Shown: positions 16,416-61,553 of the stretch, piece by piece
Layout: every line of letters begins with the position of its first letter
Position numbering within the stretch: the stretch's first letter is position 1
DNA from: Clostridium sp. AM33-3
GTDB lineage: Bacteria > Bacillota > Clostridia > Lachnospirales > Lachnospiraceae
Direction of reading: 5' to 3'
Length of the DNA stretch: 64,000 bases
Assembly: GCF_003480315.1 (NCBI RefSeq)
Contig: NZ_QUIV01000004.1
Location: 62,001 to 126,000 of the forward strand
Made by a program: the position numbers and the translations under genes
The notes under the pieces: generated by a model
What the model was told of the DNA's origin: nothing
The model's database searches: none
The model's input: the letters and a program-made list of their open reading frames with translations, nothing else

Positions 16416-16454
16416 TAAGCGCAGGAAAACGGCTTGGCTGTTTTCCTGCGCTTA
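16416..16454 (+). other. Strong intercistronic hairpin between arcC and the hydantoinase gene
   Basis: A perfect 14-bp stem (aagcgcaggaaaac at 16417-16430, gttttcctgcgctt at 16440-16453) with a 9-base loop. It is followed by aaagcc rather than T, so simple termination is unlikely. Confidence 0.65.
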
Positions 16455-25874: not shown

Positions 25875-25902
25875 CGGGCGGTAGTGATACCGCCCGTTTT
25901 TT
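25875..25902 (+). terminator. Terminator after galK
   Basis: A perfect 9-bp stem (cgggcggta/taccgcccg) with loop gtga and six T. Confidence 0.9.
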
Positions 25903-26003
25903 GTATGATAGGAAATTGCGTCCTATCATACAAAAACGCTCCGCGAGGATGCGCACTCGGCGCAAAGGCAGATGGTTGCCGAAGCAACCGCGCCTCGGCG
26001 CGA
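25902..26003. repeat. Cluster of small inverted repeats between galK and the metallophosphoesterase gene
   Basis: tgtatgatagga (25902-25913) pairs perfectly with 25921-25932. ggttgc/gcaacc with a CGAA loop is at 25974-25989, flanked by GC-rich gcgc-containing segments. The base composition differs from the genes on both sides, and the string looks like a dispersed intergenic repeat. Only one copy is in this window, so the repeat status is inference. Confidence 0.45.
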
Positions 26004-29533: not shown

Positions 29534-29547
29534 TATGGTGGGACAGA

Positions 29548-29587
29548 GGAAGCCCTTTATTTCTGTGAAATAAAGGGCTTCCTTTTC
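29548..29587. terminator. Terminator after the ABC permease gene
   Basis: A perfect 16-bp stem (29548-29563 with 29567-29582), 3-base loop, then ttttctct. Confidence 0.92.
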
Positions 29588-59558: not shown

Positions 59559-60083
59559 ATGAAAAAGTTAGAGGAGTATGTTGTAAGCATTCCGGATTTT
59601 CCGGAGCCGGGAATCATTTTCCGCGATGTTACTTCTATCCTGCAGGATGCAGACGGACTGGCACTGGCCATAGACAGCATTCGTGAAATGGTAAAAGATC
59701 TGGATTACGATGTTGTGGTAGGACCGGAATCACGAGGATTTATCTTTGGTGTGCCGGTTGCCTACGCAGAGCACAAGAGCTTTGTACCGATTCGTAAGAA
59801 GGGCAAGCTGCCGCGTGAGACCATTACAGCAAAATATGATCTGGAATATGGCTCAGCTGAGATTGAAATCCACAAAGATGCCATCAAACCGGGACAGAAG
59901 GTTGTTGTGGTAGATGATCTCATCGCTACCGGCGGCACCACCGAGGCCATCATCAGCCTGATCGAGCAGCTGGGCGGTGAGGTCGTAAAGCTCTGTTTCG
60001 TGATGGAACTTGCAGGCTTAAAAGGCAGGGAGCGCCTTGCCGGATACAAGGTAGAGTCTGCAATCATTTACGAGGGCAAATAA
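59559..60083 (+). CDS. apt: Adenine phosphoribosyltransferase
   Basis: A 174-residue purine salvage enzyme that makes AMP from adenine and PRPP. IPDFPEPGIIFRDVT at the N-terminus, GPESRGFIFGVPVAY near 53 and the PRPP loop VVVVDDLIATGGTTE near 113 are complete. AAAGGAGAAGAG precedes the ATG. A 678-bp gene-free stretch full of inverted repeats follows. Confidence 0.97.
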   Translation: MKKLEEYVVSIPDFPEPGIIFRDVTSILQDADGLALAIDSIREMVKDLDYDVVVGPESRGFIFGVPVAYAEHKSFVPIRKKGKLPRETITAKYDLEYGSAEIEIHKDAIKPGQKVVVVDDLIATGGTTEAIISLIEQLGGEVVKLCFVMELAGLKGRERLAGYKVESAIIYEGK

Positions 60084-60113
60084 AAATTGAGTTACAAAGC
60101 TGAATAAAGGTCC

Positions 60114-60282
60114 GGAAGTGAAAGAGACCGCCTTCCTCTATTTTCACATATCGTTGTTTGCTTGCTCTCGCTAACACGCGTTCGCCTGTGTCGGATTGAC
60201 ATCCGCCACATTCGGACGTGTGTGCTCAAGATGCAAACACCTGATATGCTGAAAATCCCGGAAAGCGATCTCATTCACTTCC
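60114..60282. repeat. Large imperfect inverted repeat A
   Basis: ggaagtgaaagaga (60114-60127) pairs with tctcattcacttcc (60269-60282) with a mismatch. Inside, 60141-60161 pairs imperfectly with 60233-60255, over a GC-rich core. The full hairpin would be about 170 bases. Confidence 0.65.
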
Positions 60283-60343
60283 TGCTGTATTGGCTTCGCT
60301 ACAAAAAATAATAGCTACAGGCTATATTAACTCTGCCATAAAA

Positions 60344-60417
60344 AAACGCAGCCAGAACGCTACTATCGTATAAAAGCCAGATTACAGGCTTTCGTCAGCA
60401 ACGTTCTGGCTGCGTTT
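60344..60417. repeat. Inverted repeat B, perfect 16-bp arms
   Basis: aaacgcagccagaacg (60344-60359) and cgttctggctgcgttt (60402-60417) are perfect complements, with an inner aaagcc/ggcttt hairpin. An A-run precedes and a weak T-rich stretch follows, so it might also terminate transcription. Confidence 0.8.
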
Positions 60418-60443
60418 ATTATCGTAGAATAACCAATACAGCA

Positions 60444-60643
60444 GAAGGTTCGGTCAGACTATACAGAATCAGCAGATGCGTTGGAATTTTCTTCATGCGC
60501 GAGCATAGCGCCAGACCGGAGACCCTTGTCTGAGTGCGCAAAGCGCACGAGTTTGGGGCGCAGGTCTGGCAATAGGCGGCGGAGCGAATGAAGTACAAAA
60601 TTTCACAGCATCTGCTGATTCTGTATAGTCTGACCGAACCTTC
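60444..60643. repeat. Inverted repeat C, perfect 36-bp arms with nested stems
   Basis: The 36 bases at 60444-60479 are the exact reverse complement of 60608-60643. Between them lie further nested stems: cttcat (60491-60496) with atgaag (60588-60593), gccagacc (60510-60517) with ggtctggc (60563-60570), and gtgcgc/gcgcac with an AAA loop at 60534-60548. Together they give a nearly continuous 200-base foldback. Confidence 0.92.
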
Positions 60644-60764
60644 GGACCTTATGTGGTTACGTCTCAATATTGCAATATTCGCTCTTGTGGCAGTTCTGGA
60701 AATGCAGTATAATTATATTAATTGTGCCATATTTTACGGCATAAAACTAACGTGAGGTGAAATG

Positions 60765-61553
60765 ATGTTAATATGGGTCTTCACTGCGGCGGCAGTGCTC
60801 TGCCTGGTGTATTACGGTGTCATTGTGCTGTACGCGGGCTTTGGTACTTCCTTTGCTGTGTTATGGCTTCTGATCGGCGGATTTTTCGGAGCTACGGCTG
60901 CCGGGATCCACTTTTACCAGAAATATCCGGAGCGCATGCCGCTCTGGCTCCCTGTATCCTTTGTGACCTTATGCGCCTCCGGCCTGATGATCATTCTGGT
61001 GACACAGATCCTGATCTTTGGGCGTATTCCGGCCACGGCAGAGCCATCTCTGGATTACGTGATCGTACTGGGGGCCAAGGTGAAGCCAGATGGAAGCTTA
61101 AGCAAAACATTAAAGCTCCGTCTAAATAAGGCGCTGGAGTATGCAGAGGAGAATCCGGAAACCATGTTGGTGCTCTCTGGTGCGAAGGGAGATGCAGAGC
61201 CGTGTTCCGAGGCAGAGGCCATGGAGGCTTATCTCCTGGGACAGGGGGCGGCTGCAGATCATCTGCTGAAGGAGGAACAGTCCTTCAGCACGGTGGAGAA
61301 TCTTGCCTACAGCAGGGTGATGATTGAAAAAAGAGAAGCGCTGCTTAACAGAAAGCCGGTTCCGGCACGTCAGCCGCGTATCGGCATCATTACCAGCAAC
61401 TTTCACCTGTGCCGGGCAGGCATGATCGCGAAAAAGCAGAATTACGGTACGGTCTATGGCATTGCATCGGAGGCCGACAAAGTGCTGCTGCCGCATTTCT
61501 CCCTTCGTGACGGCATTGCCTTATTAAAAGACCGCCTGATGGGAAACCTGTAA
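60765..61553 (+). CDS. YdcF family (DUF218) membrane protein
   Basis: A 262-residue protein with three N-terminal membrane spans (about 1-85), then a DUF218 domain: LDYVIVLGAKVKPDGSLS near 105, LVLSGAKGDAEPCSEAEAM near 145, EEQSFSTVENLAYS near 180 and IGIITSNFHLCRAGMIAKK near 217. Members include SanA/YdcF proteins with roles in the cell envelope; the function here is unknown. GAGGTGA lies just before two adjacent ATG codons (60762 and 60765), so the start is uncertain by one residue. Confidence 0.88.
   Translation: MLIWVFTAAAVLCLVYYGVIVLYAGFGTSFAVLWLLIGGFFGATAAGIHFYQKYPERMPLWLPVSFVTLCASGLMIILVTQILIFGRIPATAEPSLDYVIVLGAKVKPDGSLSKTLKLRLNKALEYAEENPETMLVLSGAKGDAEPCSEAEAMEAYLLGQGAAADHLLKEEQSFSTVENLAYSRVMIEKREALLNRKPVPARQPRIGIITSNFHLCRAGMIAKKQNYGTVYGIASEADKVLLPHFSLRDGIALLKDRLMGNL

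Follow-up and report, generated by a model that had tools for sequence, protein, structure and literature searches.

A probable nest of palindromic hairpins beside apt in Clostridium sp. AM33-3 includes a member of a dispersed hairpin superfamily of Lachnospiraceae

The window, a 64,000-nucleotide stretch of a contig from Clostridium sp. AM33-3, belongs to the Lachnospiraceae, a family of common gut bacteria, and contains a gene-free stretch flanked by apt (59559–60083, plus strand) and a DUF218/ydcF-type gene (60762–61553, plus strand). The block at 60107–60650 within this stretch consists of three abutting hairpins, H1, H2 and H3, closed by an 8-bp stem, AAGGTCCG/CGGACCTT, pairing at 60107/60650. 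An earlier note had described three successive inverted repeats with 8-base ends in a gene-free region, and its coordinates hold. The window has six inverted repeats whose arms reach 20 nt and lie no more than 400 nt apart; four of them, including the three longest, fall inside the block. Folded as RNA, the 544-nt block reaches −279.6 kcal/mol, compared with an average of −152.0 for shuffled sequences (z −20.0); the corresponding DNA values are −162.3 and −70.9 (z −19.6), and none of 100 shuffles folds as well in either form. The impression that foldback density is far above that of the remaining window is borne out for the length of the inverted repeats, but not for the stability of 200-nt windows taken every 100 nt, as four outside the block fold better than the best inside it (−81.7); windows of this size split H3, whose 211 nt intact give −126.2. 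Short perfect inverted repeats also occur at 16416–16454, 25898–25936 and 29547–29583, and are probably terminators. A single ORF of 80 or more codons overlaps the block (82 aa, minus strand, 60419–60667), and its product has no Pfam match.

H1 (60107–60282, no strand assigned) comprises the outer arm AAGGTCCG and a left arm, a core that resembles a hairpin in genome G228, and a right arm; its arms pair flush for 9 bp from 60114/60282 and are 82% complementary over 33 nt. H2 (60283–60443, likewise unstranded) lies between the right arm of H1 and H3, has arms that pair flush for 12 bp at 60282/60444, and encloses an inner hairpin (60341–60420) with a called terminator-like site on each strand. 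H3 (60444–60643, plus strand) has perfect 36-bp arms, flush at 60444/60643 and 94% complementary over 47 nt, around a conserved core at 60467–60622 of the form GAGCATAGCG ... GTCTGAG-hairpin-CGAGTTTG ... ATAGGCGGCGGAGCGAA. The seven bases that follow, GGACCTT (60644–60650, unstranded), would be the last of the H1 right arm, parted from 60282 by H2 and H3, and when they are joined to 60282 the H1 stem extends to 16 bp with zero mismatches. The 8-bp repeat thus most plausibly represents the outer end of the H1 stem, split by H2 and H3, and the simplest reading of the layout is that both of these sit within the right arm of H1. This lends no support to the proposal of a single composite element bounded by an 8-base terminal repeat, as the repeat reads as part of the H1 stem and the whole block was found nowhere else: the BLAST search suggested in the note, run with the block against 397 Lachnospiraceae genomes, gave only weak partial matches, at eight places in six genomes; those at L014, L015 and L018 are apparently chance matches.

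Weak BLAST matches to the centre of H3 in other Lachnospiraceae led to a common pattern: GAGCATAGCG is followed by one strand of a stem, by CTGTYTGAG and by an apical hairpin, after which come CGAGTTTG, the second strand of the stem and ATAGGCGGCG-AGCGAA. The gapped motif GAGCATAGCGN{12,42}GTYTGAG occurs at 25 places in 12 of the 397 genomes, against two matches, one in each of two genomes, for a reversed-motif control. Reading of the sequences left 22 true copies in nine genomes, the other three places (L148, L156 and L158) being dropped by eye as coding-like sequence in which the fold is absent. Searches of phages and plasmids with the block gave no match at E 0.01; in viral contigs the H3 motif occurs in 83 stretches, none of which carries both downstream motifs, and the H1 pattern has no match.

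Alignment of 14 copies, including the H3 of the window (alignment A3), contains 34 pairs, 21 of which show changes on both sides. With the structure derived from A3 itself, 95.3% of 473 cells are paired, compared with 77.6% in shuffled alignments and 35–49% when the partner is slid, and the covariation was equalled in none of 500 shuffles on four measures and in one of 500 on a fifth. By our own count, 18 of about 451 core pairs (~4%) are G-U, and the internal loops and the apical loop of the core are conserved. A covariance model built from 13 copies with the H3 of the window left out (R3) recovers H3 at 60467–60622 with 74.4 bits and an E-value of 1.8e-16, its sole match in the 64-kb window up to E 10. 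H3 is therefore a member of a dispersed hairpin superfamily of Lachnospiraceae.

A core with conserved secondary structure could denote a structured RNA family, a small RNA or UTR element whose core binds a protein or ligand and whose helices are kept paired by selection on the RNA, and the earlier note had listed a structured-RNA locus among its options. The strong covariation and the conserved internal and apical loops favour this, and selection on structure could also keep the arms paired; against it, there is no Rfam family. None reaches the gathering (curated) threshold in the window, and a looser Rfam search of the block and eight loci returned unrelated sub-threshold matches, bar two tRNA genes beside one copy.

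The genomic distribution of the copies also bears on this question. Genome G288 carries at least 33 copies (model R2), all on one 2.86-Mb contig, while only seven of the 23 genomes of its genus have any copy at E 0.001, the other six having one to three each; such abundance in a single genome, with few copies in relatives, speaks against a structured RNA. The nearest ORFs around the 33 copies are, relative to the element, forward-forward in 17 cases, reverse-reverse in eight, convergent in five and divergent in three. The commonest placement is therefore co-directional with both neighbours, as would suit an RNA, but 16 of the 33 copies depart from this forward co-directional arrangement. ORFs longer than 147 aa contain no copy; seven copies are spanned by ORFs of 73–147 aa, all on the minus strand of the element and probably due to chance, and in six others an ORF of at least 70 aa overlaps part of the element. 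Four copies appear damaged by eye, two being without the inner hairpin, one truncated, and one minus its right arm. At L204 (G288 C1:2608921–2609067), what stands in place of the right arm is, in our reading, similar to the end of an IS3-family insertion sequence.

One of the G288 copies separates accC from accD. Model R3, run on this locus in 14 genomes, gave one match, that in G288, and no copy was found up to E 1 in the accC–accD region of the 13 other genomes compared, all of the same genus; in the nine nearest relatives the two genes nearly touch. As the proteins are only 61–71% identical in these nine, and less so in the other four, the relatives are distant, and insertion rather than loss is favoured on grounds of parsimony. 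The empty sites that the note had proposed as a sign of mobility are thus represented by one filled site and 13 loci without the element, at this evolutionary distance. In the likely genus of the window, the ydcF regions compared are ~66–83% identical between species, so empty sites were judged by gene order only, in the genus of G288.

Two explanations in which the hairpins owe their palindromy to their sites can be weighed here. That they are ordinary terminators, or intergenic hairpins arisen in place, finds some encouragement in the two terminator-like sites called within H2, but a homologous core at many sites and in many genomes, and a copy between accC and accD, leave this explanation scarcely credible, and for H3 the copies elsewhere refute it. 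Alternatively, the core might insert into pre-existing palindromes such as bidirectional terminators, whose sequence would then supply the arms. Terminator-like hairpins are seen by eye on both sides of some G288 copies, whereas no palindrome was seen by eye in the accC–accD junctions of the 13 relatives, and the helices are near-constant in length with a weak consensus across copies, making such targeting very improbable.

LepA of the window is 94% identical to that of genome G178, a member of the family of Extibacter muris (G001), Lachnospiraceae, and the genus of G178 is taken to be that of the window. When two regions of G414 served as DNA queries, nine of 24 genomes of this genus (G406, G414, G415, G416 and G420–G424) had matches inside the element, whereas those in G403 and G418 were confined to flanking sequence. 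A first covariance model, R1, was insensitive, reporting a copy in one of the 24 genomes compared with nine by the DNA queries, and first-look numbers of 229–233 in G420 and 163–181 in G415 are candidates that are not counted as copies. A k-mer census of 400 kb of G420 revealed 24 long palindromes, 23 of them shorter than 400 nt, and R3 gave 17 matches at E ≤0.05, one of them partial, in the same 400 kb; if that density holds, the genome would carry about 200 copies over its 5.1 Mb. The multiple copies that the note had named as support for mobility thus exist for the H3 family, in G288 as in G420, and its dispersal is well supported. The flanks of the 23 G420 palindromes, read by eye, show no consistent target-site duplication.

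At least three types can be told apart by eye: alpha, mostly of 190–270 nt, beta, of 200 nt, and gamma, of 166 nt. Model R3 recognises both alpha and beta copies, with 18 of 20 matches in 14 loci at E ≤0.001, which places the two in one superfamily with H3. The gamma type starts and finishes with CTAG, lacks the core motif, and is represented by G420 C1:131574–131739, C2:49017–49182 and C2:71319–71484, two of these copies lying 136 and 14 nt from an alpha element. Palindromes in G420 are clustered, nine neighbouring pairs being less than 400 nt apart, and one locus (L337, C1:175310–176103) forms a nested palindrome of 794 nt, with an alpha element in the middle and inverted beta elements on either side, which folds almost completely. 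The nest of three hairpins in the window therefore has parallels in a relative. Two copies in G414 have arms of 39 and 40 bp which differ in sequence by eye, and the 36 perfect base pairs of H3 fit this habit of long, locus-specific arms.

The arms were compared in 33 alpha copies, 22 from G420 and 11 from six other genomes, for which both core anchors were required, favouring intact copies. When every copy is set to the offset that suits it best, pairing extends to 1375 of 1452 arm positions (94.7%). In the 26 copies that share one common offset with at least 39 of 44 positions paired, a selection that raises the own-arm figure, each copy's arms are 96.5% complementary to one another, against 74% identity (gapped) to the left arms of other copies; the seven excluded copies have 44, 43, 42, 40, 37, 33 and 32 of 44 positions paired at their best offset. 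In mid-arm, the contrast within the 26 copies rises to 99.3% own against 73% between copies. An ungapped comparison of the variable block in 27 copies gives 99.5% against 58.6%, the between-copy figure being partly lowered by one-base shifts, and the gapped values are preferred. The core, by comparison, is 91.7% identical between alpha copies of standard length. When 86 pairs of closely related copies, whose left arms differ at 1–12 sites, were examined, 706 differences were both-sided and 167 one-sided, although these comparisons share copies and are not independent. Changes in one arm are thus matched in the other. The sequence GGTNCG(C/G) is found within 75 nt on the right in 30 of the 33 copies and on the left in one.

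The 1144 arm cells of the 26 copies comprise 1104 Watson-Crick pairs, eight G-T pairs and 32 mismatches, so that wobbles make up only 0.7% of the 1112 arm pairs. This is low, as a selected RNA should often pass through G-U pairs, which it would tolerate and which the core does contain. Taken with the distribution of the copies, the scarcity of wobble leaves a structured RNA family unlikely, even though the conserved secondary structure of the core, the part of that proposal that has stood, is real.

Matched arms could also be kept identical in place, independently of movement, by template switching during replication or by gene conversion (quasi-palindrome correction), with hairpins being re-perfected and lengthened where they lie. 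Template switching is named as a mechanism for the concerted evolution of palindrome arms in a discussion of such repeats (PMC6649704), and G288 offers some evidence of a local process. By eye, the arms of its copies show a weak consensus between copies, yet pair within each copy, and outer complementarity, measured 36–160 nt from the core, reaches a score of at least 45 in six of 33 copies compared with 12 of 1056 cross-copy pairs; at the same score, the controls gave none of 33 in direct orientation and none of 990 pseudo-centres. The outer complementarity therefore involves locus-specific sequence in some copies. In-place correction leaves dispersal unexplained, although it could act together with movement, and as the whole explanation it is judged distinctly improbable.

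Relatives of the other two hairpins are few. H1 has one in a single genome of 387, G228 (L022 2874–2958/L270; 75% over 87 nt, E 7.8e-08), the long arms of which also contain AGGTCCG, as at the outer end of the window's block. A relationship of H1, read on the reverse strand, to H3 is suggestive by eye, but was set aside as model R2 gives only 5.8 bits (E 8.3). H2 has no relative among the loci examined. With one outside relative for H1 and none for H2 among these loci, the mobility of both rests on analogy, and they may be mobile by comparison with H3. The window's YdcF protein is 98–99% identical to three database proteins and 84% identical to one from Clostridium sp. AF27-2AA, and in G178 apt is followed by a different gene, without the block, with ydcF on a separate contig, so that gene order differs at this point. 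The gene after apt in G178 looks by eye like a cobalamin methyltransferase gene.

Together, these observations make it probable that non-autonomous mobile elements, palindromic and non-coding, lie nested in the block, and that those of the H3 type move as single-stranded hairpins with recopying of an arm. Of the options raised by the earlier note, a nested set of such elements fares best; for H3 this is upheld by its many dispersed copies, their clustering in a relative and a filled site set against 13 without the element, and it is extended to H1 and H2 by analogy. H1 (60107–60282 with 60644–60650) would have been present first, H2 and H3 arriving later inside its right arm. Each element may be envisaged as a conserved apical core with internal loops, carried on long helices whose sequence is free and whose pairing is kept. 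Dispersal, damage, nesting and the accC–accD case point to present or past movement of the elements, and the conserved loops and apex on free helices suggest that a folded single strand is recognised, as in the IS200/IS605 and REP systems. On this model the element would travel as a folded single strand that is identified through its internal loops, and, as no protein-coding gene is apparent in the elements, a mobilising machine encoded elsewhere would have to act. A crude search for HUH-type motifs by regular expression, covering the window and the examined loci except L065–L147, gave three matches, none convincing, and found no RAYT or transposase. The matched changes suggest that one arm templates the other, either during movement, which is preferred, or by template switching in place; if one arm were read off the other while the element is copied or a gap is filled, each change would become matched in both. 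More tentatively, the elements may exemplify a class of mobile DNA in which a hairpin rebuilds one arm in each round, so that the arms drift yet match, only the protein-recognised loops are conserved, and elements prefer to land in one another, giving rise to giant nested palindromes.

Dispersed hairpin repeats are common in bacteria, and what the H3 family adds is a clear-cut pattern open to test: arms that change in step and hardly ever contain wobble pairs. Such a pattern could separate recopying of arms at the DNA level from selection at the RNA level. In some genomes the density of the family is sufficient to reshape intergenic regions, and trouble for genome assembly is to be expected. 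No description of it was found in the open-licence literature, and it has no match in Rfam.

Among known systems, prokaryotic MITEs are similarly small, non-coding, strongly folding and dispersed, going by excerpts of an account of MITE features (PMC10969869). H3-type elements are likewise short, non-coding, multi-copy and intergenic, the ORF overlaps in G288 aside, and differ in that the arm ends of the G288 copies share only a weak consensus. ERIC, YPAL, Bcr1 and other stem-loop repeat families differ in sequence and host, and replacement of arms with pairing kept is not among the features given in the excerpts describing them. The perfect inverted repeats of Nematomorpha mitochondria have comparably long perfect arms, and template switching is discussed as a possible means of their maintenance, with mention of active maintenance in bacterial genomes; unlike the H3 family, they lie in protein-coding sequence, and the relevant sections describe no dispersed family with a shared core (PMC6649704). 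As to possible enzymes, a survey of Y1 transposases reports that the IS200 subclass is strongly represented in Clostridia and that the other subclasses are sparse, with co-occurrence in Cyanobacteria, Bacteroidetes and Proteobacteria (PMC6006769). According to another paper, how even REP sequences spread is poorly understood (PMC8266576).

The nearest parallel is to REPINs, and the H3 family is probably best regarded as a set of non-autonomous mobile hairpins akin to REPINs, in which the second arm would be copied anew from the first. REPINs, doublets of REP sequences associated with RAYT (TnpA-REP) proteins, are thought to use RAYTs for their movement, and like the elements described here they are extragenic, high-copy, symmetric and gene-free hairpins. 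In the GI doublets, a less conserved spacer separates two conserved 16-mers, with 71 bp from the first residue of one to that of the other; in the H3 family, by contrast, it is the apex and internal loops that are conserved and the helices below that vary, over a total of roughly 150–300 nt. No REP unit with a GTAG-type foot stood out when the H3-family alignments were read. The hairpin with compensatory changes on both sides that characterises REPIN/RAYT systems is found in the H3 family as well.
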